Assembly (NCBI GenBank): GCA_021793405.1
Contig: JAJYSV010000045.1
Coordinates: forward strand, 1-34,257
From: Acidobacteriota bacterium
Lineage (GTDB): Bacteria; Acidobacteriota; Terriglobia; Terriglobales; Acidobacteriaceae
Direction: 5' to 3'
Length of the DNA: 34,257 nt
Below are positions 5,640 to 34,257 of this stretch, piece after piece. Below the pieces are notes generated by a model. It was not told the origin of the DNA. It did no database searches and was given only the letters and a program-made list of their open reading frames with translations. The translations under genes and the position numbers were made by a program. How positions within the stretch are numbered: the stretch's first letter is position 1; each line of letters begins with the position of its first letter.

Positions 5640-5735
5640 TCATTCGCTGGGGCACAGCAGCAGATAGATGCGTTGCGCGGAAAGCGCGGGCAGAGACCTT
5701 CAGCCAGGATTAACCTTATTCCGGTAGAAGAAACT

Positions 5736-7894: not shown

Positions 7895-7936
7895 TATTGC
7901 AGTTGCCGCTTGTGAGAAGGCACTCGCAATTGGCCC

Positions 7937-7943
7937 GGAGGAG
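7937..7943 (+). promoter_or_regulatory. Strong Shine-Dalgarno GGAGGAG fixing the start at 7947
   Basis: GGAGGAG ends three bases before ATG 7947. The reading frame is open much further upstream, overlapping the kinase gene, and this site decides the start. Confidence 0.8.
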
Positions 7944-7946
7944 CAT

Positions 7947-9008
7947 ATGGAAAGAATTCTGAAGCCGCATTGGAATCTCAAGCTGTGGGGTCTCTATCTG
8001 CTGGCAGCCAGCTCAGCCGTGTTCACGATCGTTGGCACCGGCATGGCTATGGCGCAAGGCCCATACCACATTACGGCGCAATGGAAGATTGGAGGCGACG
8101 GCGGTTGGGATTATCTCGCAGTGGACCCAATGAGCAAACTGCTGTACGTGACCAGGGGAAGTCATGTCCTCGTCCTTGACACCGCTTCGGGCAAGGTCGC
8201 GGCCGACATCACTGGACTCAAGGGCACGCATGGCGTAGCGTTCGATACCTCTGGCAAGTTCGGATACATCAGCGACGGCGGCGCGAATGAAGTTGTGGTG
8301 TTCGACCGCAAGACGAATTCCATCCTCCAGCGTGTTCCCGCAGGAACCAATCCCGATGGCATCGTCTTCGAACCAGTCACGCAGACGGTATGGGCCTTCA
8401 ATGGACGCAGCAAAAGCGCCACGGTAATTGACGATTCCTCGCACCAGATCGTCGCAACGGTACCGCTCCCAGGCAAGCCTGAGTTTCCAGTAGCCGACGG
8501 CAAAGGCTCAATCTACGACAACATTGAGGACCTCAGCCAGATCGTTCATATCGACGCCAAAACGCATAAAGTTCTGGCCTCATGGCCCATCGCTCCCTGC
8601 GAGGGTCCATCCGGCCTCGCCATAGACAGAAAACATCGCCGCCTGTTTGCTGTCTGCGACGGGAAGATGGCTGTGGTCGACGCCAACACTGGAAAGGTTG
8701 TCGCTATACCGACCATAGGCGACGGTCCCGATGCGGCCCGCTTCGACCCCAGACATCAGTTGGCTTTCAGCTCGAACGGCGAAGGAACGCTGAGTGTCGT
8801 TCACGAGGATTCGCCGAATGCCTACACTGTGCTTCAGACGCTGCCCACCAAGCGCGGCGCCCGCACCATGGAGTTCGATGGGGCATCTGGAAAAATCTAC
8901 GTCGTGACTGCCGACTTCGGTCCTCGTCCGGCGGCTACAGTGGATCGCCCGCGTCCACGTCCCAGCATTCTGCCCGGCAGCTTCGTCGTCATGGTGATTG
9001 GCCGGTAA
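7947..9008 (+). CDS. Exported YncE/YVTN-like beta-propeller protein
   Basis: The product is a 353-residue secreted beta-propeller of the YncE/40-residue YVTN repeat type. A signal peptide spans residues 1-36 (hydrophobic core LYLLAASSAVFTIVG, probable cleavage after MAMA). The rest repeats a blade of about 40 residues with a recurring YVT.G...VLDTASGKV pattern (KLLYVTRGSHVLVLDTASG, FGYISDGGANEVVVFDRKT, RRLFAVCDGKMAVVDANTG, KIYVVTADFGP). Such proteins are periplasmic or extracellular binding or scaffold proteins; no enzyme function can be assigned. The C-terminus is Pro/Arg-rich. The upstream two-component pair is close and co-directional, so shared regulation is possible but unproven. Confidence 0.82.
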   Translation: MERILKPHWNLKLWGLYLLAASSAVFTIVGTGMAMAQGPYHITAQWKIGGDGGWDYLAVDPMSKLLYVTRGSHVLVLDTASGKVAADITGLKGTHGVAFDTSGKFGYISDGGANEVVVFDRKTNSILQRVPAGTNPDGIVFEPVTQTVWAFNGRSKSATVIDDSSHQIVATVPLPGKPEFPVADGKGSIYDNIEDLSQIVHIDAKTHKVLASWPIAPCEGPSGLAIDRKHRRLFAVCDGKMAVVDANTGKVVAIPTIGDGPDAARFDPRHQLAFSSNGEGTLSVVHEDSPNAYTVLQTLPTKRGARTMEFDGASGKIYVVTADFGPRPAATVDRPRPRPSILPGSFVVMVIGR

Positions 9009-9290
9009 GCAGAATTCCTATAAGCTTCTCAACATCTCTCCCGCAGCACCGGGGCGGAAGACGAACCTCCCCAACTTCTTGCCCCTTGTTGCCAACGTCT
9101 ACGAATTCCCCGTGAGGACTTCTTACACCGCCGGCGTTTCGACCAGAGACAGCGAGTTGCCGCAAACAGCCCTGGCCGAAGCCCATGCGAAGACCACGCA
9201 GGCAGTATCCTTAGATAGGCGATTCAGGGGTAGCGAAGGCGGAAATCCGTTTTCCGCTGTCTCGCTGTTCGCCGGTTTTCCCATTGAGCG
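9009..9290. other. 282-base spacer without a convincing gene
   Basis: Short open frames cross this stretch but none has a ribosome site or recognisable protein. The one visible structure is a hairpin, GCGGAAA (9239-9245) with TTTCCGC (9251-9257) and a 5-base loop, 34 bases before the ABC permease start. It lacks a T-tract, so it is more likely a leader structure than a terminator. Confidence 0.4.
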
Positions 9291-10544
9291 ATGAATCCAG
9301 TCGAAACGCACAGCCACTCTTTCGCACGAACGCTTGCCAGCGCCAAACAGACCATGGTACTGAGCGAGATCCTGTCTCTCGCCTTCGACAGCTTTCGCAA
9401 TAATAAAGTGCGCTTTGCTCTGACAGCGCTCGGCATGGTCATGGGTTCGGCCTCGGTGATCCTGGTGGCCACCATTGGTCTCACCGGCAGGCAATACGCA
9501 ATCAACCTGATCCAGGGCATCGGCGCGAACATGATCGTCGCGGACTGTCAGTGCGGCGGCATGAATCCAGACTTTCTCACCAATGACGACCTGACCGCGG
9601 TCGACGAGCAGGTGCCCGGCATTATCTGGTCTTCACCCATGCTGGAGATGCAAGTCCCGATCAGCTTCGGGGACGGAAAAGTGAAAGACATCCTTGTTCT
9701 GGGTGTTTCTCCGCAATATAAAAAAGTTCGCAACCTGATGGTCCTCTCCGGACGTTTCTTCGATGAAGAGGACACCGTCAGCCATGCCAAAGTGGCTGTG
9801 GTCACGGTCCCGTTTGCGGAAAGCTTATTCGGCAACGCGGATCGAGCCATCAACCAGACCTTTACCATCCGAGGGATTCCCTTCACCATCATTGGAGTCT
9901 TCAAAGAACGGGTCAATACGTGGGGGATGTCGGAAATTTCAAAACAAACGATCCTGATTCCCTACCCGGTGGGGCGATATTTCACCGGAACCGACGCCGT
10001 AAAGCAGTTGTTCTTTTCTGTTAAAAATTTCAGCGATACGCCGCGGACGCGAGATGAAATTGCCAAAGTCATTCAGTCCAGGCACCGCCCAGGCTCCGTG
10101 TATGACGTGGTCGAATACACAGCTCTCGTGGATACTGCGGCCCACATCGCGGACATTATGACGCTCGTACTGCTGCTGGTTTCCGCCGTCACGCTCGCCG
10201 TCAGCGGGGTGGGCATTATGAACATCATGCTGGCGACGGTGCGATCGCGCATTCGCGAAATCGGCATCCGAAAAGCGGTGGGCGCCACGTATCGCGAAGT
10301 GCAATTGCAGTTTCTTGCCGAGGCTATTCTCATTTCGCTCAGTGGCGGCATCGTCGGTACATTGCTTGGGCTCGCCCTTCCGCTCTCAGTGCGTTTTTTT
10401 CTCCCCGCCTATACCATCCCCATTTCACCCTGGTCGGTTGTGATTTCTCTGGGTACAGCGATGATGGTTGGGGTCTTGTTTGGAACCTTGCCGGCCACCC
10501 GCGCCGCGCAAATGGATCCCGTGGAATCTCTGAAATATGAGTAG
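9291..10544 (+). CDS. MacB/FtsX-type ABC transporter permease
   Basis: The 417-residue protein has the standard MacB permease build. One membrane helix lies near residues 43-65 (FALTALGMVMGSASVILVATIGL), followed by a large periplasmic MacB-PCD domain (about 66-275). Three C-terminal helices follow at about 285-315, 335-365 and 383-407. The FtsX-domain signature VGIMNIMLATVRSRIREIGIRKAVGAT is split here as GIMNIMLATV / IREIGIRKAVGA. The C-terminus PATRAAQMDPVESLKYE is typical of the family. The partner ATPase and membrane-fusion protein are not adjacent, so it must pair with proteins encoded elsewhere. ATG 9291 has only a weak ribosome site, and ATG 9354 (residue 22) is an alternative start. 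Substrate unknown; family members move lipoproteins, peptides or macrolides. Confidence 0.9.
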   Translation: MNPVETHSHSFARTLASAKQTMVLSEILSLAFDSFRNNKVRFALTALGMVMGSASVILVATIGLTGRQYAINLIQGIGANMIVADCQCGGMNPDFLTNDDLTAVDEQVPGIIWSSPMLEMQVPISFGDGKVKDILVLGVSPQYKKVRNLMVLSGRFFDEEDTVSHAKVAVVTVPFAESLFGNADRAINQTFTIRGIPFTIIGVFKERVNTWGMSEISKQTILIPYPVGRYFTGTDAVKQLFFSVKNFSDTPRTRDEIAKVIQSRHRPGSVYDVVEYTALVDTAAHIADIMTLVLLLVSAVTLAVSGVGIMNIMLATVRSRIREIGIRKAVGATYREVQLQFLAEAILISLSGGIVGTLLGLALPLSVRFFLPAYTIPISPWSVVISLGTAMMVGVLFGTLPATRAAQMDPVESLKYE

Positions 10545-10576
10545 ACCGGAAAAGTGGCTGGTCGTCTGAAGACTCG

Positions 10577-12070
10577 TCAAGAACCGATCAAGCCGGCCAC
10601 CAGTTCACGAGCGGTAGTTCGTCCCGAGTGAATCAGATCGGGCAATCCCACCCCGCGATAGGCATTGCCGATGAGACGCACATGAGGAAGCTGGGACATG
10701 CGAACGTCGAGCTCCGCCATACGATTCAAATGGCCAACTTCATAGAGCGGGAGAGAGTCCGGCCAGCGTCGAACCAGCGCAATCGAGGGTTCCTGCAGCT
10801 TGCCAACGATCCGCCCAAGGGTTGTCTGCGCCAGCTTAAGCAGCGTGGCATCGCTCTCAGTCAACAAGGGCGCGACGGAAGGACCACCAAAGAATGCGCG
10901 CAATAACACAGAGTTTTCCGGTGCGCGCTGCGGAAATTTCTGATCGACAAATGTGCATGCGAGCAGCGCACGCCGGGCGATGGCTTCCATGTCATCATCC
11001 GAAATGGGCTGGTACGGTCCGTACTGCGCCGCGGTTTGTGGAACCAGAAATCCGAATCCACGAGGAATGCGCATCACCGAGGCCTGGTCCGCAGAAAAGG
11101 CCAGCGCCACAACAATGGCGGAGGATGACTGCTGCGGCAGCAATTCCCCGATGCGTTCGTCGATTGCCCCGAACAGTTTCGCCGTAGTTTTGGCAGGAGT
11201 TGCCACTAGAACAGCATCGAATGTTTGCGATGCGAGATGAGATGCTCCCGGCGCGGATGCTCGATGAACCACCCATCCCTCGCCGGTACGCTCGATGGAC
11301 GCCACGACCATTCCACGCTGAATGCCGCTCGCGGGAATATGGGATTCCATTCCCTCGACGAGTCCTGCCAGTCCGTGGCGCAGGGTAGTGAAAATCGCCG
11401 CGGGGGCATCCCCAGCCTGCCTGCGCTGCCGCAGGCCCAGCACCAAACTTCCATGCTCCCGCTCCAATGCCACGAAGGCTGGGAGAACAGCACGCGCGCT
11501 CAAGCTTGCGATATCCCCGCCAAAAACGCCAGCCAGCAGCGGCGCTGCAATCGTATCCGCAACCTCTGATCCAAAGTGGCGAAAGACGAAATCTCGCACC
11601 GATTCATCGCGGGAGGAGCTAGCGGCATCGAGGGCGCTTGTTTTCAACTGCTCCGCCAGCTTCGGCTCGCGCAGATAGGCAAGCTTCGCCTGCCAGCTGA
11701 ACAGTGGCGAATCCAACACGCCAGCCCACTGCACCGGCACCATCATGCGCATGCCGTCCGGCATCGCAGTCAGCGCACGGCCTTGGACAAGATATGTTTT
11801 GCGCCTGTCATCGCGGGAAGGAACCAACTCACCCTCCAAGCCAAGCTCCAGCGCCAAATCGCGTGCCCAGGGTTTTTCCGTCACCCAGCTATCCGGTCCG
11901 CATTCGATGACGAAACCGTCGCGCCGTACGGTCTCGACAGTCCCACCCAGGCGAGAAGCAGCGTCGAAAAGAACAAACTCAATCGGCGCTCCCGCGCGCT
12001 GTTGAAACGCGAGTTCATAGGCAGCCGAAAGTCCAGCAATGCCTCCGCCAATGATGGCGATTCGCTTCAT
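10577..12070 (-). CDS. hemG: Protoporphyrinogen/coproporphyrinogen oxidase (HemY-type flavoenzyme)
   Basis: The 497-residue FAD enzyme is last in the heme operon. The N-terminus MKRIAIIGGGIAGLSAAYEL is the dinucleotide-binding GxGxxG fold of the amine-oxidase superfamily. It is followed by FDAASRLGGTVETV and ECGPDSWVTEKPWA, characteristic of HemY-type oxidases. The C-terminus (RLIGNAYRGVGLPDLIHSG) closes the FAD site. It oxidises protoporphyrinogen IX to protoporphyrin, or coproporphyrinogen III to coproporphyrin in bacteria using the coproporphyrin route; sequence reading alone does not separate these. Its ATG overlaps the stop of hemH in an ATGA. Oxygen-dependent HemY is also written hemY or cgoX. 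Confidence 0.92.
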   Translation of the reverse strand: MKRIAIIGGGIAGLSAAYELAFQQRAGAPIEFVLFDAASRLGGTVETVRRDGFVIECGPDSWVTEKPWARDLALELGLEGELVPSRDDRRKTYLVQGRALTAMPDGMRMMVPVQWAGVLDSPLFSWQAKLAYLREPKLAEQLKTSALDAASSSRDESVRDFVFRHFGSEVADTIAAPLLAGVFGGDIASLSARAVLPAFVALEREHGSLVLGLRQRRQAGDAPAAIFTTLRHGLAGLVEGMESHIPASGIQRGMVVASIERTGEGWVVHRASAPGASHLASQTFDAVLVATPAKTTAKLFGAIDERIGELLPQQSSSAIVVALAFSADQASVMRIPRGFGFLVPQTAAQYGPYQPISDDDMEAIARRALLACTFVDQKFPQRAPENSVLLRAFFGGPSVAPLLTESDATLLKLAQTTLGRIVGKLQEPSIALVRRWPDSLPLYEVGHLNRMAELDVRMSQLPHVRLIGNAYRGVGLPDLIHSGRTTARELVAGLIGS

Positions 12071-23899: not shown

Positions 23900-25042
23900 A
23901 TGAAAAAAGTCACCCGCCGCCATTGCATACTTGGCCTGGCTGTTGCCCCCTTTGCAAGCCGTCTCCTATGGTCATCCAACATGCAAGTCAACCGGATTTT
24001 TATCGGGACCTACACAGCGAAAAGCAGCCGCGGCATCTACGGCTATCGCTGGAATCCGCACACGGGCGAGATGTTGTCGATAGGTCTTGCCGCACCAACC
24101 CCGAATCCAAGCTTCCTGGCACTATCGCCCACCCATACCCATTTGTACGCGGCGAATGAACAGCCGGGCAGCACCCCGGGCTCCGTCTCTGCTTTCACCG
24201 CTGACCCATCGTCCGGCAAACTATTGGCAAGGAATGTCGTCCCTTCGGGAGGTTCGGGCCCGTGCAATTTGACCACGGACCATATCGGCGGCTCACTCTT
24301 CGTGGCCAACTACGACAGTGGCAGCGTTGCCAGTTTCAGAATTCTTCCCGGCGGAAGTCTGAGCGCGCCCGTTTCCAATATTTTCTTCCACGGTCACAGC
24401 GTGAACCCGGCACGGCAACAGACACCGCACGCACACTGCACGACCATCTCTCCTGACAACCGATATTTGCTGGTGAACGATCTCGGAACGGATCGCATCC
24501 ATGTCTATCGCTTCGATCCGACGACCGCAGAACTGACGCCCAACGACCCGCCGTTTTACAGTGCAATTCCTGGATCCGGTCCGCGTAACCTTACGTTTCA
24601 TCCGAATGGAAAGTGGGCGTACTCGATCAACGAGATGGCAAGCACGTTGGAGTGCTTGAACTGGGACGCCACAACCGGTGCGCTCACTCGATTTCAGGTC
24701 ATCTCGACCCTGCCTGAAAAATTCAAGAAGCCCACGGCCGCGGCCACCGTTGCGATTCATCCCAACCGGCGTTTCCTCTACGCGTCCAATCGGGGAGACA
24801 ATAGCATCACCGCCTTTTCCGTCGATCCCGCGAATGGACATCTTGCCCTGCTGCAACGAATCTCGTGCGAGGGAAAGACCCCGCGCCATTTTGCAGTCGC
24901 GCCCGATGGCCGGTGGCTGGTTGTCGCCAATCAGGACTCGGCAAATATCGTAATCCTGAAGTGTGATCCGCAAACTGGGCGATTGGCGTCTACGGGCAGG
25001 CAGTACCCGCTTGACTCTCCCGTCTGCGTCGCGTTTGAATAA
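23900..25042 (+). CDS. Exported lactonase-family seven-bladed beta-propeller (Pgl/YkgB-like)
   Basis: The 380-residue protein resembles the 6-phosphogluconolactonase/YkgB lactonase family (PF10282 type). After a short twin-arginine-like leader (KKVTRRHCILGLAVAPFASRL), the mature part begins RIFIGTYTAKSSRGIYGYRW and runs through blades such as LYAANEQPG, LFVANYDSGSVASF, PHAHCTTISPDNRYLLVNDLG, RNLTFHPNGKWAYSINE, RFLYASNRGDNSITAF and WLVVANQDSANI. These are the usual motifs of the family. Because it is exported, a free sugar lactone rather than 6-phosphogluconolactone is the likelier substrate. The frame is open from 23636, but ATG 23900 starts exactly at the signal peptide; its ribosome site is weak. 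It follows rhaI by 40 bases. Confidence 0.85.
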   Translation: MKKVTRRHCILGLAVAPFASRLLWSSNMQVNRIFIGTYTAKSSRGIYGYRWNPHTGEMLSIGLAAPTPNPSFLALSPTHTHLYAANEQPGSTPGSVSAFTADPSSGKLLARNVVPSGGSGPCNLTTDHIGGSLFVANYDSGSVASFRILPGGSLSAPVSNIFFHGHSVNPARQQTPHAHCTTISPDNRYLLVNDLGTDRIHVYRFDPTTAELTPNDPPFYSAIPGSGPRNLTFHPNGKWAYSINEMASTLECLNWDATTGALTRFQVISTLPEKFKKPTAAATVAIHPNRRFLYASNRGDNSITAFSVDPANGHLALLQRISCEGKTPRHFAVAPDGRWLVVANQDSANIVILKCDPQTGRLASTGRQYPLDSPVCVAFE

Positions 25043-25063
25043 AACAACGAAAAGAGAATCGAA

Positions 25064-26023
25064 ATGCGAGTTGGAGTATTCACGCCGTTGTTGGCGCAGT
25101 TGCCGCTGAAAAGTGTATTGCAGAAACTGAAAGCGCTGGACATTACCACCGTGGAGTTAGGCACGGGAAATTTTCCCGGCGACCCGCATTGCAAACTCAC
25201 CATGCTGGAAAATGGCGAGGAACTTCGAGAGTTCCAGAGCACGCTCGCAGATCACGGCGTCACCATCAGTGCGCTCAGTTGTCATGGAAACGCGCTGCAT
25301 CCCGATGCCTCACGCGCGCAACAAGCTCGCGATGTCAGCCGAAAAACGATTCTACTGGCCGAAAGATTAGGCATCCCGGTCGTGATCGACTTCTCCGGCT
25401 GCCCTGGGGATTCGATTCATTCCACCGCGCCCAATTGGGTCACCTGCCCATGGCCGCCGGAATATCTCGATGTTCTGAATTGGCAGTGGAACGAGGTAGT
25501 CACCCCGTACTGGATCGAGCATGGGGCATTCGCGGCGCAGCACAATGTAAAAATCGCGATTGAGATGCATCCGGGCTTCGTCGTGTACAGTCCTGAGACC
25601 ATGGCCCGGTTGCGTGCGATTGCCGGCCCTAGCGTCGGATGCAACTACGATCCCAGCCATATGTTCTGGCAGGGTATCGACCCGATTGCTGCCATCCGCG
25701 TGCTGGGAGACTCAATCTTTCACGTCCACGCCAAAGATACACAAATCTATCCCGCGAATCTGCCTCGCACCGGCGTCCTGGATACCAAACCTTACACCGA
25801 CGAACGCAGTCGAGCCTGGATCTTCCGCACTTGCGGCTATGGCCACGGCGAGGAGTGGTGGCGAGAGTTTGTTTCTACGCTGCGGATGTTTGGCTATGAC
25901 GGTGTGCTCTCCATTGAGCACGAAGACAGTCTCATGTCTTCTGAAGAAGGCCTGACCAAAGCGGCGCAATTCCTCCGCGGACTGGTGATTGAACAACCGC
26001 CCAGTGCGCCTTGGTGGGCGTAA
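25064..26023 (+). CDS. Sugar phosphate isomerase/epimerase family protein (AP-endonuclease-2-like TIM barrel)
   Basis: The 319-residue TIM-barrel protein is of the xylose-isomerase-like/IolE-IolI family. Likely metal ligands are Glu167 (IAIEMHPG), Asp196 (NYDPSHM), His222 (FHVHAKD) and Glu285 (LSIEHED). Also conserved are TVELGTGNFPGD and FSGCPGDS. No signal peptide is present, so it is cytoplasmic. ATG 25064 follows AAAGAGAA. Members isomerise or epimerise sugars, keto-sugars or inositol derivatives; the substrate cannot be told from the sequence. Its pairing with a Gfo/Idh/MocA oxidoreductase 73 bases downstream is a frequent partnership in sugar oxidation/epimerisation gene sets. Confidence 0.88.
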   Translation: MRVGVFTPLLAQLPLKSVLQKLKALDITTVELGTGNFPGDPHCKLTMLENGEELREFQSTLADHGVTISALSCHGNALHPDASRAQQARDVSRKTILLAERLGIPVVIDFSGCPGDSIHSTAPNWVTCPWPPEYLDVLNWQWNEVVTPYWIEHGAFAAQHNVKIAIEMHPGFVVYSPETMARLRAIAGPSVGCNYDPSHMFWQGIDPIAAIRVLGDSIFHVHAKDTQIYPANLPRTGVLDTKPYTDERSRAWIFRTCGYGHGEEWWREFVSTLRMFGYDGVLSIEHEDSLMSSEEGLTKAAQFLRGLVIEQPPSAPWWA

Positions 26024-26083
26024 TTGCATCGGTCAGGAGTTTAATTTTTGCAACACTTGTGATCGCTAGACGGGCTTCGGCCC

Positions 26084-26091
26084 AAGAGGAG
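26084..26091 (+). promoter_or_regulatory. Shine-Dalgarno AAGAGGAG deciding a TTG start
   Basis: AAGAGGAG ends five bases before TTG 26097. The alternative GTG at 26091 would overlap this site, so TTG 26097 is the better start. Confidence 0.65.
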
Positions 26092-26096
26092 TGGAA

Positions 26097-27245
26097 TTGA
26101 AGCTGATTCGAACGGCAATTCTTGGAACTGGATTCATGGGACGGGTGCATCTGGAAGCGCTCCGTCGCGTGGAAGGTGTTGAGGTAGTCGCGATCGTGGG
26201 CCGGGAACTGGCCTCGGCACAGAGCCTGGGAGCGGGTTACGGCGTCGAAAGATCTGAGGCGGACTATCGCAATGTGTTGAGCGACGCGAGTATTGACGCG
26301 GTCCACATCTGCACGCCAAACGCCTCGCATTATCTTATGGCCAAGCATGCGTTGCTGGCTGGCAAACATGTCCTCTGCGAAAAGCCTCTTTCCACTTCCG
26401 TCGAAACTGCTGCGGAGCTTGTACAACTCGCGACCGAGCGGAAGCTGCGCAACTGTGTATGCCAGAATCTGCGTTTTTACCCCATGGTGCAACAGATGCG
26501 ACGCATGCGCGAAGACGGCGACCTAGGCCGAATTCTCATCGTTCAGGGCAACTACCTGCAAGATTGGCTTTTAGACGAGGCTGCATGGAACTGGCGGATC
26601 GATTCCAAATTCGCCGGGCAATCGCGAACCATGGGTGATGTCGGCACCCATTGGTTCGATATGGCGGAACATGTGACCGGTCTGCGGGTCAATTCTTTAT
26701 GTGCGGACCTGCAAACCTTTTATCCCACCCGCACCCGGCCCACCACCAAGGTGGAAACCTTCACAGCCAAGGCGGCTACTACGAGCGGCGAGAAGATCGT
26801 TGTCGACACAGAAGATTTTGGCAGCGTCCTCTTCCACATGGACGGCGGCGCCCGTGGAGCCATGATGGCAAGCCAGATGGCCGCCGGACGAAAAAATCAG
26901 CTCAAGATGGAAATTTACGGAACAAAAGCATCGGTCAGCTGGGATCAGGAGCGTCCCGACGAATTATGGGTCGGTCATCCCGATAGCGCGAATCATCTGT
27001 ACATCAAAGACCCAACCCTCATGAAGGAGAAGGCGCGGTCCTATGCCGACCTGCCCTGCGGCCACAGCGAGGGTTACGACGATGCCTTCAAACAGATCTT
27101 TCGCAGGTTCTATGCATCGATTCGAGACCAAAATTCTCCAGTCGAATATCCGCAGATGTCCGATGGCTTGCGGCAATTGGTCCTAATGGATGCTGAGTTG
27201 AAGAGCCATCGCTCGCGGCTTTGGGTCGACGTCGAGAATCCGTAG
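26097..27245 (+). CDS. Gfo/Idh/MocA-family NAD(P)-dependent oxidoreductase
   Basis: The 382-residue enzyme has an N-terminal Rossmann fold (AILGTGFMGRVHLEALRRV, residues 7-25), the family's CEKPLS motif (Glu95-Lys96-Pro97) and a C-terminal alpha/beta domain. The latter has MGDVGTHWFDMAEH, in which Asp181 and His185 occupy the usual catalytic positions. Members oxidise or reduce hydroxyl groups of sugars and inositols. No signal peptide is present. The start is TTG 26097 behind AAGAGGAG. It is the last gene of the rightward block that begins at lutA. A role in the same sugar pathway as the preceding isomerase is likely, but its link to rhamnose is not shown by sequence. Confidence 0.9.
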   Translation: MKLIRTAILGTGFMGRVHLEALRRVEGVEVVAIVGRELASAQSLGAGYGVERSEADYRNVLSDASIDAVHICTPNASHYLMAKHALLAGKHVLCEKPLSTSVETAAELVQLATERKLRNCVCQNLRFYPMVQQMRRMREDGDLGRILIVQGNYLQDWLLDEAAWNWRIDSKFAGQSRTMGDVGTHWFDMAEHVTGLRVNSLCADLQTFYPTRTRPTTKVETFTAKAATTSGEKIVVDTEDFGSVLFHMDGGARGAMMASQMAAGRKNQLKMEIYGTKASVSWDQERPDELWVGHPDSANHLYIKDPTLMKEKARSYADLPCGHSEGYDDAFKQIFRRFYASIRDQNSPVEYPQMSDGLRQLVLMDAELKSHRSRLWVDVENP

Positions 27246-27271
27246 CGGGGTACTCCATACTGGCGAAGCTA

Positions 27272-27291
27272 GGGGGATAGAACAATCCCCC
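27272..27291. terminator. Hairpin between convergent genes, candidate bidirectional terminator
   Basis: GGGGGAT (27272-27278) and ATCCCCC (27285-27291) form a 7-bp GC-rich stem with loop AGAACA. It lies in the 71-base gap between the convergent oxidoreductase and YeiH genes. No T-tract follows on either strand, so termination efficiency is uncertain. Confidence 0.45.
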
Positions 27292-27316
27292 GCATTCCAA
27301 TAGCAGTGAAGACGCG

Positions 27317-28240
27317 CTAAAGCGTAATCCATCCCGCGCGAATCGCAAGCAGGGAGGAGACGGCAATGATCGCCCACAAGCAAACTCCCTGCAGAAATGG
27401 ACGAACGCCGACCCTGTGCAGCGTGTTTTTCGACAACCCAGTCCCAATCAAAAAGAGAACGACCGTAAGTCCAAGTTGGCCGAGATGACTCAACACTGGA
27501 TAGATCCGCGCCCCAATCGGAAGATAGGTCTTGGCCACGGCGGCCAGGCAGAACAGCAGAATAAACCAGGGCCACTGAACGCGCGTTTTGCTTTTGGCAA
27601 CATACGCTGTAATCATCGAAACGGGTATGATCCACAGGGCCCTCGCCAGCTTCACCGTTGTCCCAATCTGCAACGCCTGAGCGCCGTATTTTGCCGCGGC
27701 GCCAACAACTGAACTGGTATCGTGGATGGCAAGCGCAGCCCAGAGTCCAAACTGTGTTTGGCTCATGTGCAAACCAAAACCGACAGCCGGGAACAGCAGA
27801 AGCGCCACCGAGTTGAGGACGAAAACTGTCCCCAGTGCCATCGCCATTTCCTCTTCATCGGGCCTGGTAATTGACGAGATGGCCGCAATAGCGCTTCCTC
27901 CGCAAATCGCGGTTCCAGCCGTGATCAGAAACGACGCCTTCTTGGTGACGCCCAGCATGCGGCCCAGACCCCAGCCAAGAAGCATGGCGACGGAAATGCT
28001 GATCGCCGTGTAGAAAAACCCTGCCCGGCCGGCATGGATTACCTGGCGCAGGTTCATCCCGAAACCAAGTGCAACCACCGCCGCCTGCAATAAAAAGTGC
28101 GACAAATTTCTGCTATCCAGTTGATAGGGATGAGGGAAACTGAAGCCGTAAGCAATCCCTGCCAGCAATGCGACTGCTGGAGACACCACTCCTGTGGCGC
28201 TCAAAATCAGCCCCAGAAAAAAAATCGTCTTCGGATTCAA
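27317..28240 (-). CDS. YeiH-family putative sulfate/sulfite exporter
   Basis: The 307-residue membrane protein belongs to the YeiH/UPF0324 (PF03601) family. It has about ten hydrophobic helices starting at IFFLGLILSATGVVSPAVALLAGIAYG (split here as IFFLGLILSATGVV / ALLAGIAYG). The conserved family segments are ALGFGMNL, ITAGTAICGGSAIAAISSI, WAALAIHDTSSVVGAAA and LARALWIIPVSM. The open frame begins at 28483, but that would overlap the divergent LysR gene and add a soluble, unrelated leader. TTG 28240, behind TGGAGGA (28244-28250 on the opposite strand), begins just before the first helix and is the likely start. YeiH proteins are annotated as sulfate exporters and in enterobacteria sit next to the LysR regulator YeiE, as here. 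Confidence 0.88.
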   Translation of the reverse strand: MNPKTIFFLGLILSATGVVSPAVALLAGIAYGFSFPHPYQLDSRNLSHFLLQAAVVALGFGMNLRQVIHAGRAGFFYTAISISVAMLLGWGLGRMLGVTKKASFLITAGTAICGGSAIAAISSITRPDEEEMAMALGTVFVLNSVALLLFPAVGFGLHMSQTQFGLWAALAIHDTSSVVGAAAKYGAQALQIGTTVKLARALWIIPVSMITAYVAKSKTRVQWPWFILLFCLAAVAKTYLPIGARIYPVLSHLGQLGLTVVLFLIGTGLSKNTLHRVGVRPFLQGVCLWAIIAVSSLLAIRAGWITL

Positions 28241-28243
28241 AAT

Positions 28244-28250
28244 TCCTCCA
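28244..28250 (-). promoter_or_regulatory. Shine-Dalgarno TGGAGGA for the YeiH TTG start
   Basis: On the minus strand TGGAGGA stands three bases before TTG 28240, supporting this start over the longer open frame. Confidence 0.6.
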
Positions 28251-28284
28251 GCTTTTAGTCTCTTAGGGATAACCGTGAGAGTCC

Positions 28285-28314
28285 AAGAGGAAGTTCTTAT
28301 CGCGGATTCCTCTT
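28285..28314. promoter_or_regulatory. Inverted repeat in the divergent YeiH/LysR intergenic region
   Basis: AAGAGGAA (28285-28292) and TTCCTCTT (28307-28314) are perfect inverse copies separated by 14 bases. The location between a LysR gene and its divergent target is where such a regulator usually binds. The centre does not clearly show the T-N11-A core, so this is tentative. Confidence 0.3.
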
Positions 28315-28451
28315 CCTTATACCGTTGGTCGCCGCGAACCTCTGGCGCGATGGGTCTGATTCGCGCCGTTCTGCGACAATCGTGAAGCAGGCCTGTTGCC
28401 GCTATAGAAACCTCGGCGAACCTGACAACACCAGACTGAGACGAAATAGAG

Positions 28452-29384
28452 ATGGAGAATTTCCGGCTCAAGATTTTCCGCATCGTCGCTCAACACCTCA
28501 ACTTCAGTCGCGCCGCGGAAGAACTTTTCCTGACGCAACCCGCCATTACGCAGCAAATCAAAACGCTTGAGGAAGAGTATGGGATTCCGCTGTTCGACCG
28601 GACTGGCGGCCGCATAACCTTGACTCCCGCGGGAAAATCTCTTCTTACGTACGCAAAGAGATTGAAGGCAATCTCCGACGAAGCGTACGAGGTGGTGGCC
28701 AGCACAGGCGGTCAGCATGCGGGAAAGCTTGCGCTGGGAGCGTCGCAAACCATCGGACAATATCTGCTGCCAAACCTTGTTGCCGCTTTCCTCCGCGAAA
28801 ATCCTCGGGTTGAACTGACCGCGATGAGCGGCAACACGGATGAAGTGCTCGCAGCTCTCGCCATACGCCGTATTCAACTGGCGATGATTGAAGGCCCGGG
28901 GCTGCGCAAGGATGTTCGCATTGAACCTTTCATGGAGGATCAAATGGTCCTTGTCGTTCCAGCCAGCCATGAGTGGGCCGATCTCGAGATCGACGTAAAC
29001 GCGCTCAAGGGAGCGCCACTGTTGATGCGGGAGTTTGGCTCGGGATCGCGCCGCGTCGTCGAAGGCGCTTTAGCCAAAGCCGGCCTCAAGAAGAAGGATC
29101 TCAAGGCGACGATGGAGCTCGATTCAACCGAGGGCTTGCTCAGTGCTGTGGAGGCGGGCCTTGGTGTCACCTTCGTATCTCGCTGGACGGTGCGCAACCA
29201 ACTGGCTCTCGGCACCCTTCGGCTGGCGCACGTGAAAGAACTTCGATTGTCGCGTATGTTCTCTCTGGCCTATCCCGCAGGCCCCGAGCCCACGGGCAAC
29301 GCAGGAGCATTTCGTCGCTTCATTCTCGCTCGCTCCGCCGAGCTGGTCCCGCGTGTTACCGGAAAAGCTCGCAGCCGGACTTGA
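28452..29384 (+). CDS. LysR-family transcriptional regulator (YeiE/CysL-like context)
   Basis: The 310-residue protein has an N-terminal winged helix (FRIVAQHLNFSRAAEELF, QPAITQQIKTLEEEYG, LFDRTGGRITLTPAGKSLL) and a two-lobed effector domain (about 90-295). The effector domain contains LALGASQTIGQYLLP and FGSGSRRVVEGALAKAG, the latter close to the CysL/YeiE type. It is divergent from the YeiH gene with 211 bases between the starts. Known YeiE-type regulators respond to sulfite and control yeiH; a sulfur-anion role here is inferred from that pairing. The C-terminus is Arg-rich. ATG 28452 has a weak ribosome site (GAAATAGAG). Confidence 0.92.
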   Translation: MENFRLKIFRIVAQHLNFSRAAEELFLTQPAITQQIKTLEEEYGIPLFDRTGGRITLTPAGKSLLTYAKRLKAISDEAYEVVASTGGQHAGKLALGASQTIGQYLLPNLVAAFLRENPRVELTAMSGNTDEVLAALAIRRIQLAMIEGPGLRKDVRIEPFMEDQMVLVVPASHEWADLEIDVNALKGAPLLMREFGSGSRRVVEGALAKAGLKKKDLKATMELDSTEGLLSAVEAGLGVTFVSRWTVRNQLALGTLRLAHVKELRLSRMFSLAYPAGPEPTGNAGAFRRFILARSAELVPRVTGKARSRT

Positions 29385-29420
29385 AAACGTTCCGTGCAAC
29401 CGTAAGAAAGGCTCAATATT

Positions 29421-30530
29421 GTGACTTCTCGGCGAATGTTCCTTCAGGCTCTCGCTGCATGCGCTCTTTCACCGCCCCGCATGTATGCTGCCGGAGCAGA
29501 CACTGATTCCGCGTGGGGTGATAGTTCCGCGCGCAAATCATATCCAGACGGTCGGCCCGTAGCTACGCTTCGTCTCAATGCATTCGATGCGATCCCTATC
29601 ATTCGTCACGGAAGCGGGCCCAATCGTTGCGATTATCTTGGAGCGCGTGAAGCAATTTGCTTCCAGGCGAGTGGCACCTATTACCTGTATTACGATGGGG
29701 CTGGTCCCACCGGTTGGCGAGCTTGTCTGGCAACAAGTACCGATTTGCACCATTGGAACCTCAAGGGCCCAGTTCTCAACCTGGGCGCGCCGGGTGAAGA
29801 CGATGCAGGTACCGCTACTTCACCATGGACGGTATTCGACAGCCCGTGGTGGCACATGTTTTATGTCGGATCACGAACCACAACTCCACCGCCGAATCGG
29901 ATCCCAGCAGTTCCATATTTCACTCTCGCCGCCCGCAGCAGACATCCGGGCGGCCCCTGGATCAAGCAGAGGAATGTAGTTCCCTTCCGCACGCGTCCGG
30001 GAACCTATTACGCCGACACCGCCAGCCCAGGCCAGATCGTCCGACAGGGGAACGAATATCTGATGTTTTTCAGCGCCGCAGCCTATCACGGCAAGCAACT
30101 GAAGAGGACTCTTTCGATCGCTCGAACAAAGGACTTGGATGGAGCGTGGCTGCTCGACCCCGAGCCGATCTTGCCGCCGGATCAGCAGATTGAAAATTCG
30201 GCGCTGTATTTTGAACCATCCAATAGCACCTGGTTTCTTTTCACAAACCATATCGGCATCGACGATGGCGGAGAATACACCGACAGCATCTGGGTCTATT
30301 GGAGTAAAAATCTGGAAACGTGGGATGCCGAGAAACGTGCGGTAGTTTTGGATCGTACGAATTGCCCTTGGAGTTCGCGATGCATCGGAATGCCATCCGT
30401 GGTGAAGGTGAAGAAACGGTTGACTCTATTTTATGACGCTTCCACAACGACTCTGAGCAACAACATGGGGAGGGACATCGGACTTGCGTGGCTGCAGCTT
30501 CCCTTGAGTCCGCCGTCCCGGACCGTTTGA
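29421..30530 (+). CDS. Tat-exported GH43-like five-bladed propeller glycosidase (putative)
   Basis: The 369-residue protein has a twin-arginine leader (SRRMFLQALAACALS, cleavage near MYAAGA). Its beta-propeller fold resembles GH43/GH117/DUF377-type hydrolases: YLGAREAICFQASGTYYLYYDG, ATSTDLHHWNLKGPVL, WTVFDSPWWHMFYVGSRT, ADTASPGQIVRQGNEYLMFFSA, ENSALYFEPSNSTWFLFTNH and GMPSVVKVKKRLTLFYDA. Each blade begins with an acidic residue followed by aromatic strands, as in arabinanase-type propellers. The likely catalytic acids cannot be fixed by eye. The start is GTG 29421 after AGAAAGG; the TTG/ATG codons nearby do not fit the signal peptide. Substrate unknown; plant-polysaccharide side chains are plausible given the GH95 and rhamnose genes. 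Confidence 0.65.
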   Translation: MTSRRMFLQALAACALSPPRMYAAGADTDSAWGDSSARKSYPDGRPVATLRLNAFDAIPIIRHGSGPNRCDYLGAREAICFQASGTYYLYYDGAGPTGWRACLATSTDLHHWNLKGPVLNLGAPGEDDAGTATSPWTVFDSPWWHMFYVGSRTTTPPPNRIPAVPYFTLAARSRHPGGPWIKQRNVVPFRTRPGTYYADTASPGQIVRQGNEYLMFFSAAAYHGKQLKRTLSIARTKDLDGAWLLDPEPILPPDQQIENSALYFEPSNSTWFLFTNHIGIDDGGEYTDSIWVYWSKNLETWDAEKRAVVLDRTNCPWSSRCIGMPSVVKVKKRLTLFYDASTTTLSNNMGRDIGLAWLQLPLSPPSRTV

Positions 30531-30614
30531 AGGAGTAGGAAGACCACTGTATCGCGCGGCTCCTGTCGTCGGCATTCAAACGCACGGAAGCACCGGAGGA
30601 GACCGAATCAGTTC

Positions 30615-30690
30615 TGGTGGGCCCGGAGGGATTTGAACCCCCAACCAAAGGATTATGAGTCCTCTGCTCTAACCGTTGAGCTACAGGCCC
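30615..30690 (-). tRNA. tRNA-Ile2 (CAU anticodon, lysidine type)
   Basis: On the minus strand the gene runs GGGCCTG...CGGGCCC-A-CCA, 76 nt with an encoded CCA. The acceptor stem pairs fully with one G-U. The D arm has TAGCTCAACGGTTAGAGC, the anticodon loop is CTCATAA (anticodon CAT) flanked by GAGGA/TCCTT, and the T arm contains GGTTCAAATC. A CAT anticodon can mean Met, but the sequence is much closer to tRNA-Ile2 of E. coli (AGCTCA..GGTTAGAGCAG..GACTCATAATC..TTGGT). It would then read AUA after TilS modifies C34. The island integrase starts 44 bases beyond its 5' end. Confidence 0.9.
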
Positions 30691-30733
30691 GAACACTGTT
30701 TAACTAGCTGTTGCAGTTGATTTTACCAGCATT

Positions 30734-31843
30734 TCACTGAACCACTCTTTTAGCCTCCTCTGTGCTGGTGTCACTTAGAGTGTCACCTCCTTTTTCAGTC
30801 CTCACCGCAGTTTCACAAAGACGCTCGACTGCGGCCAGTTCATGGGACTGAGAAAGATGGGTATACCGAACCACCATCTGGAGTGTCTTGTGTCCAAGAA
30901 GTTGCTGTAGAGTTCGGAGATCGACGCCAGCCATGACGCACTTGCTTGCGAATGTGTGCCGAAGATCGTGCCAATGAAAATCTTTCAGTTTGGCGGTCTC
31001 AATAGCAGCCTCCCACCAGTACCGGGGGCGTTGCAAAGGTATACCATGCTCTCCCATGAACACTCTGCCCTCACCCTGAGATCGCTCCCACAGGGATTGA
31101 AACGCACCAGAGGCCACGGAGTTAAGCGGTACATATCGAGTGGTGCCATTTTTGGTCTCACGCAGAGTTAGCTGATGCGCGTGCAAATCCACATCCGACC
31201 AGAGGAGCTTGTACTGCTCACCGCTTCGTATGCCGGTGTGTAGTGCAATCTCAAACTCTGGCACGTGCATTGGATGGTCCCGCTCGATTACGGTCCGTAG
31301 CCGCTTCTCCTCATCTATGGATAGGAAACGTGTCCGTTCATTGTGTTCTCGCATCCGCTTCACCAGTCTAGCGGGATTGCTCTGGCAGCGTCCGTTTTCC
31401 ATTCCAAGCCTGAATGCCAGCGAGATAAAAGCCTTGTAGCGATTCACGGTAGCGGGTCGCCACTCATGCTCTTTTTGGGCATCTGAGAGCCAGCGGGCAA
31501 GCATCTCCGGCTTGATCTCATCCGCTGGTATCGCCCCGAATGCATTCCTCAGTAGCTCGATTCGGCATGTGTAGCGCTTCTTACTGCCCTTTGGTATACC
31601 ACGCTTGCTGTTTTCTTTTGCTGCATCCAGCAACTCACCGAACCTGATTTTCCTGGCCCTCAAGTTCTCTGGAAGTTTGCGACCCTCAAGCGCTTCCTGC
31701 TTGCGCTTCACGTACAGCTTTCGCGCTACTGCTTTCGTTCCTGCCTTTTCACGTCGCTTTCTGCCGCTTGCGTCTGCGTAGCAAATCCACCAGACACCGC
31801 TATTCTTGTTCTTCTCAAAAAGACCCCGAACCTTCTTAGCCAT
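30734..31843 (-). CDS. Tyrosine-type site-specific integrase
   Basis: The 369-residue phage-type integrase has an N-terminal arm-binding region (VWWICYADASGRKRREKAGT), a SAM-like core-binding domain (about 65-165) and a catalytic domain. All six catalytic residues are visible: Arg206 (HTGIRSGEQYKLLW), Lys231 (ETKNG), His292 and Arg295 (HDLRHTFAS), His318 (LGHKT) and Tyr327 (VVRYTHL). It is expected to be active. ATG 31843 is chosen because GGAG precedes it by four bases and the protein's conserved start is there; the open frame extends 17 codons upstream. It lies 17 bases downstream of the excisionase-like gene on the same strand. It is transcribed toward the tRNA-Ile2 gene, with its stop 44 bases from the tRNA 5' end. 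Confidence 0.95.
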   Translation of the reverse strand: MAKKVRGLFEKNKNSGVWWICYADASGRKRREKAGTKAVARKLYVKRKQEALEGRKLPENLRARKIRFGELLDAAKENSKRGIPKGSKKRYTCRIELLRNAFGAIPADEIKPEMLARWLSDAQKEHEWRPATVNRYKAFISLAFRLGMENGRCQSNPARLVKRMREHNERTRFLSIDEEKRLRTVIERDHPMHVPEFEIALHTGIRSGEQYKLLWSDVDLHAHQLTLRETKNGTTRYVPLNSVASGAFQSLWERSQGEGRVFMGEHGIPLQRPRYWWEAAIETAKLKDFHWHDLRHTFASKCVMAGVDLRTLQQLLGHKTLQMVVRYTHLSQSHELAAVERLCETAVRTEKGGDTLSDTSTEEAKRVVQ

Positions 31844-31860
31844 AACGCTCCACTCTACCA

Positions 31861-32058
31861 TTAAGCCGCACGCGACATGGTTTCGTGATCGCAACGCAAT
31901 AGAGAACGTAGCGCGGAGGCGGGAATCAAAACCCGCCGTCCAATTTTACGTGCGGTGAGTTCCTTAGCAGCAATGAGGTTGTCGATGGTGCGGGGGCAGA
32001 GGCCGAGCGCAAAGGCCGCTTCAGTTTTCGTGTAAGCGAGTTTTTCAATCTGTTCCAA
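31861..32058 (-). CDS. Excisionase-like helix-turn-helix protein
   Basis: The small protein of 65 residues is one HTH_17/MerR-like module of the excisionase family: KLAYTKTEAAFALGLCPRT, IDNLIAAKELTARKIGRR, VLIPASALRSLL. Such proteins bend DNA and set the direction of recombination by the neighbouring integrase. The start is TTG 32058, six bases after AGGAGA on the minus strand. A longer open frame begins at 32169, but it adds unrelated residues and overlaps the upstream gene. The stop is 17 bases before the integrase ATG, so the two are probably co-transcribed. Confidence 0.8.
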   Translation of the reverse strand: MEQIEKLAYTKTEAAFALGLCPRTIDNLIAAKELTARKIGRRVLIPASALRSLLRCDHETMSRAA

Positions 32059-32061
32059 TTT

Positions 32062-32071
32062 TGGTCTCCTA
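32062..32071 (-). promoter_or_regulatory. Shine-Dalgarno CTAGGAGACC for the excisionase TTG start
   Basis: CTAGGAGACC on the minus strand places AGGAGA six bases before TTG 32058 and so decides this start. Confidence 0.65.
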
Positions 32072-32119
32072 GATAAGCGTTCTAAATTCAGTGCAGAGTG
32101 TGCAGTCAATCGCTGGTAT

Positions 32120-32545
32120 TTATGCAGCCAATGGCATTCCTTCGACAGGCAGGGATTCGATGCGTGCATGGTGACGGTGACAAGAGCGGCTTTTCCCCGC
32201 GAGTAAGCTGCTAGCGCTAACCTCTCTCTGGGTGTGCCTGTGACAGAGACACTCGCAAAGCCAATAGCGTATTAAGCCGCGAGTCGGGGCCTGCTTCAGA
32301 ACCATCCAATAGCTGAACACCTGATTGGTTAGATCGAAGCCACGGTTACGGGCCTTTCCTGCGCGGAGGCATCCGCAACTCTGGGTGTTCCCAGTTCTGA
32401 GCGCAGCGCCACGGACGTGAATCTTTGCTTCTGGGCAGCAATCGCACTGGCACACCCAGATAATCGAACGGTTTATGTTTACGCCTCGATACAGCACGGT
32501 AAGACGCCCGAACCGCTGTCCAGTCAAGTCGATAAAATTAGACAT
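32120..32545 (-). CDS. Phage-type zinc-binding protein with two tandem modules
   Basis: The 141-residue protein belongs to a family common in phages and islands, recognisable by DLTGQRFGRLTVL followed by WVCQCDC and TQSCGCL. The first module (residues 6-60) has Cys32, 34, 36, 37, 57 and 59. The second (about 71-127) is a degenerate copy: DLTNQVFSYWMVL, WLCECLC, LLAGKSRSC. The cysteines probably bind zinc. Related proteins are often labelled AP2- or HNH-like DNA-binding proteins, but the function is unproven. ATG 32545 follows AAAGGA. It lies upstream of the excisionase gene on the same strand. Confidence 0.65.
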   Translation of the reverse strand: MSNFIDLTGQRFGRLTVLYRGVNINRSIIWVCQCDCCPEAKIHVRGAALRTGNTQSCGCLRAGKARNRGFDLTNQVFSYWMVLKQAPTRGLIRYWLCECLCHRHTQREVSASSLLAGKSRSCHRHHARIESLPVEGMPLAA

Positions 32546-32570
32546 TCTTGTTTTGTCCTTTCCAATACAA

Positions 32571-32592
32571 AAGCCTCACCAAAGTGAGGCTT
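32571..32592 (-). terminator. Rho-independent-type hairpin between the two zinc-protein genes
   Basis: AAGCCTCAC (32571-32579) and GTGAGGCTT (32584-32592) form a perfect 9-bp stem with a 4-base loop. On the minus strand it is followed by TTGTATT, giving a T-rich tail after the 257-residue protein's gene. On the plus strand it is followed by CTTTGCTTT, so it could work both ways. It would reduce read-through into the integrase module. Confidence 0.7.
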
Positions 32593-32628
32593 CTTTGCTT
32601 TGTAGATTGTCTGCACAGCCTGCGGGAT

Positions 32629-33402
32629 TTACGCAGTCTGCAAATATACGCCGCTAATATAGTCCTTCCACATCTCGGAAAAGTCTGTCCCAGCGGCGAA
32701 CGCCAATTCTTCTGGAGGCAAGCCCCAAGGTGAAGCTGTCCTGAGAATCTGCTCAAGGCTAAAGACTTGCAGAAGGTCAAGCAGTCTCTGGGTAGTCCAG
32801 AACTTGTTTCTAGTCATTCGACGGAGGTACCAAGCCCACTCGGCAGGAGTGCCTACCGCCCCGCCGTATCGCGTACCAGTGTCCCCTTCACATACCCAGT
32901 CGTAACGGAGCAGCTTGGCTCGCCTTTTATTGGCAGCTTGCACGTCTGGTGGGGCCCAGCGGCAGTTCTCTTTCTTGTAGTCATCGAAGGGATTCTTTCT
33001 ATCGAGCGAATAACCCTCTGGGCATGTACCCATGTCAGCGAGAAAGACCGCGAATGACTCCCACCTCGGATCGTATTCAACAATCCCCTTGTAGTTCTTG
33101 TCCCGCTTGCAGCGGGCCTTCATATACTGCCAACGGTCATACTCCAGCGGGTGATTCCCGCGTCTGGCGTGCAAGTGCCTGCCCTTACGTTGGCACTGGC
33201 ACTTTACACTCCCGGTAATGAGACGGTAGCCGAGAGCTTCAAACTTCCTCCCACAGTCTTCACACTCGATTTGCCACCACCTGGGCTGCGATCCCTTGCT
33301 GGTAACCCGTAATGTGCCATAGTTGGCACCTGCTAAAGACAGATTCTTTCCTCTACCCATACCTAACTTTCTGCTTGGAACAGCGGTAAGTGTTTGGCAC
33401 AT
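32629..33402 (-). CDS. Phage HNH-like protein with N-terminal zinc module
   Basis: The 257-residue protein is of phage type. Residues about 21-70 are a cysteine module (SLAGANYGTLRV, ECEDCGRKFEALGYRLITG, VKCQC) resembling those in the neighbouring 141-residue protein. Residues 88-161 match a phage family around YDRWQYMKARCKRDKNYKG, RWESFAVFLADMG, YSLDRKNP and NCRWAPPDVQAANKRR, often seen as HNH-endonuclease-like. The rest (about 165-257) has WAWYLRRMTRNKFW and a tail not recognised. The classical HNH His pair is not clear, so nuclease activity is unproven. ATG 33402 has no good ribosome site; ATG 33360 (residue 15) is an alternative start. Confidence 0.65.
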   Translation of the reverse strand: MCQTLTAVPSRKLGMGRGKNLSLAGANYGTLRVTSKGSQPRWWQIECEDCGRKFEALGYRLITGSVKCQCQRKGRHLHARRGNHPLEYDRWQYMKARCKRDKNYKGIVEYDPRWESFAVFLADMGTCPEGYSLDRKNPFDDYKKENCRWAPPDVQAANKRRAKLLRYDWVCEGDTGTRYGGAVGTPAEWAWYLRRMTRNKFWTTQRLLDLLQVFSLEQILRTASPWGLPPEELAFAAGTDFSEMWKDYISGVYLQTA

Positions 33403-33630
33403 AGTGGTACAGTGGAGACCCCAAGCAGGTCTTTTTTTAGATCTTCGAGCTGTACAGCAAAAATGCGCTTATATGCGTAGGCTCTGGAGAATCGTCCGCC
33501 CCATTTGGAACAGACGGTCAAAATGAGTCCTTTTTTGATGACTTGGCTTTGTATGGGCTTTGTAGGCTATACCCAAGCGGCGGGATAGGAAGGCTTCATG
33601 GCGACTGTCCGCTTTTATATATTAGATTTA

Positions 33631-33660
33631 ATTGTACCACTGTCATTGCCAGTTTGTCAA
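33631..33660 (-). promoter_or_regulatory. Sigma70-type promoter, leftward
   Basis: On the minus strand a perfect -35 TTGACA (33660-33655) is followed after 18 bases by -10 TACAAT (33636-33631). It points at the leftward island genes, with a leader of roughly 220 bases before the 257-residue protein's gene. Confidence 0.65.
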
Positions 33661-33674
33661 GTCCAATGTATAAT
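33646..33674 (+). promoter_or_regulatory. Sigma70-type promoter, rightward
   Basis: TTGCCA (33646-33651) is followed after exactly 17 bases by a perfect -10 TATAAT (33669-33674). Its -35 region overlaps that of the leftward promoter, so the two would compete for polymerase. Confidence 0.65.
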
Positions 33675-33862
33675 GCCATCCCTCAACTCACATTCGCTCT
33701 CTGCGATGTTTCTCTCAGCGCTGTCAGTTGACGGAACCGAGACTTCTGCGGCAAAAGGGCTGTGTAGGTAGACGCCACGGCGGGCAGTTACAAGAGTGAG
33801 GGATTCATCCCAAAAATAGACCCCTTTCCGCTAGGCTCCAGTATGCGTACAGGGGTGGATTC

Positions 33863-34078
33863 GTGCATTCCTACAATCGTGCCAATCAATACGCTTGGAG
33901 ACTGAGACCCTTGTCATTATTGACGTTCCCTTATGTATTTGAGTTTTCAGAGCGGCAGATTTGTTGCAAAAGCGGAAATCGGAGTGCCAGAAAACCTTCA
34001 ATTTCATGCGACAGACGCATCATGGGTCTAACCGCGTCCGGTACCGCGTCTGGCACAGCGTACCGACGACGGGAATAG
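33863..34078 (+). CDS. Possible small unrecognised protein
   Basis: The 71-codon frame from GTG 33863 has a plausible ribosome site (AGGGGTGG, 33851-33858) and lies downstream of the rightward promoter. The protein (starting HSYNRANQYAWRL, ending TASGTASGTAYRRRE) matches nothing I know. An opposite-strand frame overlaps it, so it may be chance. Confidence 0.2.
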   Translation: MHSYNRANQYAWRLRPLSLLTFPYVFEFSERQICCKSGNRSARKPSISCDRRIMGLTASGTASGTAYRRRE

Positions 34079-34257
34079 AGAGGCTCGGATATCCTGGTAT
34101 CTACCACTGCCCCCCTTCCGCAAGCATTCCCTGATATGGAGTGACCCGTCAACCACTGCACATCTGTGGGGTTGTTTTTGTCGTTGTCGTTGTTTGTTTC
34201 TTCTTTCGAGGACAGGGCCAGCAGCAGTCGGGGCAGGATTGAGCGACGATTGATCAG

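Follow-up and report, generated by a model that had tools for sequence, protein, structure and literature searches.

The window analysed here, 34,257 bases long, is the entire contig G000:C39 of a 137-contig genome. To the left of a predicted promoter, P_L, a small ORF of 52 aa, an HNH-type gene (HNH), a hairpin, a second HNH-related gene (HNH2), an excisionase-like gene (xis), a tyrosine integrase gene (int) and a tRNA gene follow one another in this order, all on the minus strand, and P_L itself is overlapped by a promoter-like site on the plus strand, P_R. The features are as follows.

30615..30690, minus strand: intact tRNA gene, anticodon CAT, the likely attachment core being its 5' half, 30651-30690
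30734..31894, minus strand: int, tyrosine integrase, 386-aa ORF (PF00589, E 1.2e-27; PHROG 1)
31861..32169, minus strand: xis, excisionase-like HTH protein, 102 aa (PF12728, TIGR01764)
32120..32545, minus strand: HNH2, second HNH-related small protein, 141 aa (PHROG 374, E 1.6e-23)
32571..32592, minus strand: terminator-like hairpin between HNH and HNH2, called from its fold, directly before the HNH2 ribosome-binding site
32629..33360, minus strand: HNH, HNH-type phage/island protein, 243 aa (PHROG 374, E 2.7e-26)
33363..33521, minus strand: small ORF, 52 aa, with a TTG start and an AAGGA ribosome-binding site 6 nt upstream; predicted first gene of the leftward unit
33660-33631, minus strand: predicted leftward promoter P_L, with -35 TTGACA (33660-33655), an 18-bp spacer and -10 TACAAT (33636-33631)
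33646-33674, plus strand: rightward promoter-like site P_R, with -35 TTGCCA (33646-33651), a 17-bp spacer and -10 TATAAT (33669-33674)

The intact tRNA gene adjoins the tyrosine integrase gene, and an exact 40-bp copy of its 5' half is displaced to another place in the genome, G000:C68:16410-16449; no second copy of the CAT tRNA sequence was found in the same assembly. The island is integrated in the 5' half of the tRNA gene, which is a known minority kind: in the Islander collection, 159 of 3919 islands are tRNA-gene islands with a 5' fragment (PMC4383910). As in those islands (PMC4383910), an intact tRNA gene, a displaced 5' fragment and a tyrosine integrase are present; here, in contrast, the island has one end on contig C39 and the other on C68, with the span between them not closed. 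C39 and C68 end in different repeats. Contigs between them may be missing, and a tandem island is possible. The sequence AAGTGACACCAG is present near both island ends, a placement that would fit integrase arm sites, and the 9-base core AGTGACACC is absent from L062, L063 and L065. All five near-full-length integrase relatives examined at 48% identity or more point to the 5' side of a tRNA gene (G122; G145, with only the 5' part of the tRNA gene on its contig; G101; G094:C347; and G000:C58), a count that does not cover another two copies in G094 or four matches of at least 48% that are partial; below 48% identity, the tRNA arrangement of the relatives is mixed. A group of tyrosine integrases in the family (30615-30736; L062, L063, L025, L026, and L070) points to the 5' side of CAT, Leu, and Ser tRNA genes. 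Integration on the 5' side is the rarer polarity, in which the DNA upstream of the tRNA is then supplied by the island.

P_L and P_R each agree with the consensus at 11 of 12 bases, and both reading and scanning of the sequence reveal in P_L a TG extended -10, with the TG one base upstream of the -10. The predicted starts are ~33624 (minus strand) for P_L and ~33681 (plus strand) for P_R. Near-consensus hexamers at the 16-18 bp spacing of sigma-70 promoters are thereby present on both strands. The earlier note had placed both sites here with 33646-33660 as their common bases, and direct reading together with a scan of 24000-34257 confirmed this letter for letter. The overlap is 15 bp, with the two sites back to back on opposite strands; a gap of 3 bp separates their -35 boxes, each of which lies inside the spacer of the other promoter. 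Because of this arrangement, two polymerases should not fit at once. The proposal that the overlap admits one polymerase at a time is in this respect supported by the geometry, which makes simultaneous binding unlikely, in keeping with a principle described for overlapping promoters (PMC4207663).

Scanning all 34,257 bases, we found P_L and P_R to be the sole sites of at least 11/12, one per strand, and a single third site at 10/12 (minus strand, 1707-1679). Sites of at least 9/12 are common in the window (15 on the plus strand and 16 on the minus strand), and the promoter scan of 24000-34257 returned 3 sites compared with a mean of 5.7 (sd 2.5) in shuffles, that is, below the shuffles. It is the quality of the two sites and their overlap that are unusual, not the number of weak sites. 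In Markov sequence of three compositions, sites of at least 11/12 on both strands arose at 5.0, 14.7, and 12.7 per Mb, and overlapping pairs of such sites numbered 0 in these simulations (three compositions, 3 Mb each). From the simulated densities, the chance that an opposite 11/12 site overlaps a given promoter comes to ~1e-4 to 3e-4, figures that are somewhat weakened by the fact that the earlier note had chosen this place after reading all 34 kb. We regard P_L as very probably a promoter and P_R as fairly likely to be active.

On the leftward side, the codon score of the 52-aa ORF falls inside the range of the island genes; the ORF gave no family match, and no relative was confirmed in viral contigs. 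A longer HNH ORF of 257 aa, from 33402, begins 14 codons too early as judged by its homologue. In this 257-aa form, the protein gave no Pfam match above the cut-off, and no relative of the HNH gene was confirmed in viral contigs. Among phages and plasmids, no DNA relatives of 32500-34257 were found. The hairpin between HNH and HNH2 consists of AAGCCTCAC-TTTG-GTGAGGCTT followed by a short U-run and folds with a z of -2.52, with 2 of 200 shuffles equally good; a consensus terminator scan reports it on the plus strand only, so its minus-strand reading depends on the fold. It may terminate transcription in part and so divide the cluster into an early unit, driven by P_L, and a downstream xis-int unit. 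Since it lies between the first HNH gene and HNH2-xis-int, P_L may not reach the integrase without read-through, and the promoter pair, at the head of the early unit, need not control the integrase directly. The earlier note had suggested that the pair chooses between the integrase-side genes and genes to the right. P_L indeed reads toward the integrase side of the island, but the hairpin intervenes before HNH2-xis-int, and this suggestion is retained in part. A structured leader was considered and rejected, since neither the 104-nt leftward leader (z -0.01) nor the opening 150 nt transcribed rightward (z 0.44) folds differently from shuffles. An Rfam search of 30500-34257 placed the tRNA alone above the gathering score.

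To compare the locus with relatives, we used 398 family genomes, including its own, in 14 of which the HNH profile matched at 1e-10 or better. Besides the window, HNH was matched at full length in G155 and G393 only. The named relatives of the HNH gene are three, two Acidobacteriaceae MAGs and a distant 37% match in Dyadobacter fermentans. G155 belongs to the same family as the window host, and the match coordinates on its contig G155:C335 (L061; 5,865 bases) are those of JASIAO010000168.1, from Acidobacteriaceae MAG JOPF337; the host of the window is thus probably an Acidobacteriaceae member too. The order of HNH, HNH2, the excisionase-like HTH gene and the integrase gene is preserved on this contig (PHROG 374, PHROG 374, PF12728, and PHROG 1, respectively), and the identity to the window is 48% for HNH and 41% over 61 aa for HNH2. 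When T was required as the last -10 base, the sole site of at least 10/12 on G155:C335 was TTGACAAATTCTCAGTTTTGTGGTTCAAT at L061:1758-1786, on the gene strand and at the head of the cluster. The end of its -10 lies 251 bp from the HNH start codon, compared with 271 bp for P_L, and both sites start with TTGACAAA and end with GTGGT(A/T)CAAT. The pattern TTGAC-N14-20-TGGNNCAAT, composed after the comparison of the window with G155, had 0 matches in 103 other loci (504,734 bases, including overlaps between loci), and its rates in simulated sequence were 0, 0.25, and 1.5 per Mb (three simulations). As MAFFT did not align the two promoters with each other in the upstream regions of the window and G155, and a stricter scan skips the G155 site, whose -10 is without A at position 2, the match of P_L depends on motif, strand, and position. 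Judged on these, P_L is probably conserved in G155 and so a real promoter. The HNH-HNH2 gap of G155 likewise contains a hairpin (L061:2801-2820), of different sequence and with a longer U-run (TTTTTCTTT), and shuffles of this stretch fold just as well (z -0.17). The sequences of P_L and P_R and their rarity are established, as is the presence, in one relative, of counterparts to P_L and to the position of the hairpin.

The leader in G155 folds with a z of -3.79, better than all 200 shuffles. A strong hairpin with a U-run, absent from the window, is located ~15 nt past the expected G155 start (L061:1810-1833) and looks like an attenuator or antitermination site. In the third homologue, G393:C55, an AlpA-type gene (PF05930) is immediately upstream of the HNH gene; the pattern is absent there, no site of at least 10/12 occurs in 10,370 bases, and one 9/12 site lies 74 bp before the HNH gene. 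The fourth homologue, L087, begins 40 bp from a contig end, and the full comparison is with one relative, G155.

P_R has no counterpart in G155, where the whole contig is without a minus-strand site of even 9/12. From P_R to the contig end there are 576 bp, in which family searches and codon scores identified no repressor gene. The ORFs in these 576 bp gave no match above the curated cut-off (five tested, on either strand and of at least 33 aa; a sixth, also tested, runs off the contig end), and none of those scored to the right of P_R was convincing by codon score. ORF 33863-34078 was rejected for its codon score of -0.303, despite a preceding AGGGG and a weak match to a PHROG without known function (E 0.015). 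ORF 33961-34134, with a score of -0.116, is near HNH2 (-0.107) but has no visible ribosome-binding site, and ORF 33598-33771, a candidate P_R gene with a good ribosome-binding site, begins to the left of where P_R transcripts should start and has a score of -0.241; both were also set aside. The 767 bases around P_R have, beyond their own genome, a single 25-bp match in 1 of 397 other family genomes searched. This narrow match, the lack of a P_R counterpart in G155 and the lack of a convincing gene past P_R would all be accommodated if P_L alone were a promoter and P_R a chance or decayed match. However, an overlapping opposite 11/12 site is expected by chance at ~1e-4 to 3e-4, and we consider such a reading rather unlikely.

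The last 128 bp (34130..34257) are a repeat that runs past the contig end; it recurs many times across the genus and has matches in 5 of 10 genus genomes, its own included. It is longer than the part seen and often near contig ends, and a 31-bp part of it is inverted nearby in several copies. It is probably a small mobile or palindromic repeat.

Recurrence of the overlap was examined in 26 stretches of at most 13 kb (234,792 bases), most of them upstream of integrase relatives, with L066 and L067 repeating parts of L062 and L064. Sites of at least 10/12 number 19 in them, or 15 if the repeated parts enter the count a single time. Back-to-back overlap was seen in L081 alone, where one pair of sites, at 9/12, nearly coincides. 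Promoter overlap is rare in related islands and is no standard feature of them.

The earlier note had also compared the pair with the switch regions of phages and ICEs. In switches of the lambda PR/PRM type, divergent promoters are located on an integrating element. The divergent promoters on an integrating element are common to lambda and the window, whereas here neither a repressor gene nor a set of operators was found. In the search for operator-like repeats, exact inverted 9-mers numbered 3 over 831 bp, compared with a mean of 2.4 in shuffles, 201 of 500 of which reach 3. Repeats over the promoters are limited to a 9-bp inverted match (33633-33641/33403-33411) and an 83% direct 12-nt match (33636-33647/33907-33918). 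The Pc and Pr promoters of pLS20 likewise share DNA on opposite strands of a mobile element, and they illustrate that overlapping divergent promoters can belong to a real switch with the regulator gene on one arm (PMC4207663). In the description of pLS20 (PMC4207663), however, the regulator Rco is made from one of the promoters, which is weak and departs far from the consensus, whereas both sites here are near consensus, and neither a regulator gene nor a looping operator was found in the window. The bidirectional promoters described by Warman and Grainger resemble the pair in that opposed polymerases compete for one short stretch (PMC12825309). They share a symmetrical -10, with starts most often 18 bp apart, whereas P_L and P_R have separate -10s and expected starts 57 bp apart (PMC12825309); the pair is not a bidirectional promoter of that kind. 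The string 'acidobacteri' is absent from the main text of a cross-taxa promoter comparison (PMC8407463), and no title on this element was found among open-licence papers on islands and CRISPR.

A true phage- or ICE-like switch would require a repressor, made from the rightward transcript, that binds over the shared bases and thereby sets whether the island is maintained or excised. The presence of int and xis on the island is consistent with this, as is pLS20, where the regulator and the conjugation genes are served by divergent promoters that overlap (PMC4207663). By eye, the -35 boxes also form a near-dyad, TTGnCA-N3-TGnCAA, a possible seat for a dimer, although two opposed -35 boxes yield such a dyad anyway. 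With no repressor in the 576 bp seen, no repeats above chance, P_R without a counterpart in G155, and the terminator-like hairpin between P_L and HNH2-xis-int, we find a switch of this kind unlikely, and the comparison made in the earlier note is unsupported.

Our preferred explanation, which we hold to be moderately likely, is that P_L heads the integrase-side cluster of a tRNA-integrated island and is overlapped by P_R, with passive competition between the promoters. P_L would be a sigma-70-type promoter driving a short early unit, the 52-aa protein and then the HNH-type protein, and the hairpin past the HNH gene would throttle the flow into HNH2-xis-int. P_R, if active, would read into the rest of the island, and each promoter would lower the other by occlusion. 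P_L is likely the stronger of the two because of its better -35 and its TG extension. The competition would be passive, as a dedicated regulator is not in evidence. From the sequence, we infer the activity of either predicted promoter in the host, termination, and occlusion. If both promoters are active, the pair would be a compact case of promoter competition on a mobile island of a probable soil acidobacterium, and the P_L counterpart in a relative would help to show how islands of this kind begin to express the genes on their integration side.

P_L might in addition serve the split tRNA gene, whose former upstream flank was displaced and would be replaced by leftward transcription from the island. 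This idea is compatible with promoter competition at the pair; not all of the rival readings exclude such competition. It draws on the location of the island on the tRNA 5' side with int reading toward the tRNA, on the 5'-half copy at C68 and on integrase-promoter-expressed tRNA genes described for pTN3-like archaeal elements (PMC8371274). Moreover, when A at position 2 and T at position 6 of the -10 are required, the minus strand has no site of at least 9/12 in 30690-33670 apart from P_L and its 9/12 shadow. However, a looser rule gives a 9/12 minus-strand site at the start of HNH2 (32565-32537), an 8/12 site lies 650 bp from the tRNA, and non-consensus promoters are possible. As 2.9 kb and the terminator-like hairpin also separate P_L from the tRNA, we consider this supply improbable. 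The P_L counterpart in a relative also bears on whether host survival depends on continued activity of the island's promoter once an island has taken over a tRNA gene's 5' half.

The C68 side is probably the far end of the island, carrying a CRISPR-Cas9 locus. The Cas9 of C68 matches TIGR01865 (E 3.4e-204), and the CRISPR-Cas system is type II. In L060 (G000:C68:12000-24422), a 30-repeat CRISPR array near the tRNA fragment is followed by cas2, cas1, cas9 and a serine resolvase gene (4641-11970). The resolvase, cas9, cas1 and cas2 genes all point toward the cargo end in the island orientation, as rightward transcription does. Leftward transcription would cross HNH, xis and int and then enter the CAT tRNA gene that the island has captured. 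It is conceivable, but very improbable, that the promoter pair is the toggle of a CRISPR-Cas9-bearing island, in which one choice of polymerase would couple defence cargo, excision and supply of a CAT tRNA that the host probably needs.

The C68 flank before the tRNA fragment was considered as untouched chromosome and rejected, because a 41-bp part is similar to the integrase end beside the same tRNA in G004. Part of this flank (L060:4308-4410) is like an integrase end. It suggests that older islands or integrase remnants may have been present at the same tRNA gene. The final stretch of C68, ~125 bp, recurs exactly at seven other places, four of which are the starts of contigs, among them the left end of the window (1-125). 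These ~125-bp copies are probably the end of an insertion sequence.
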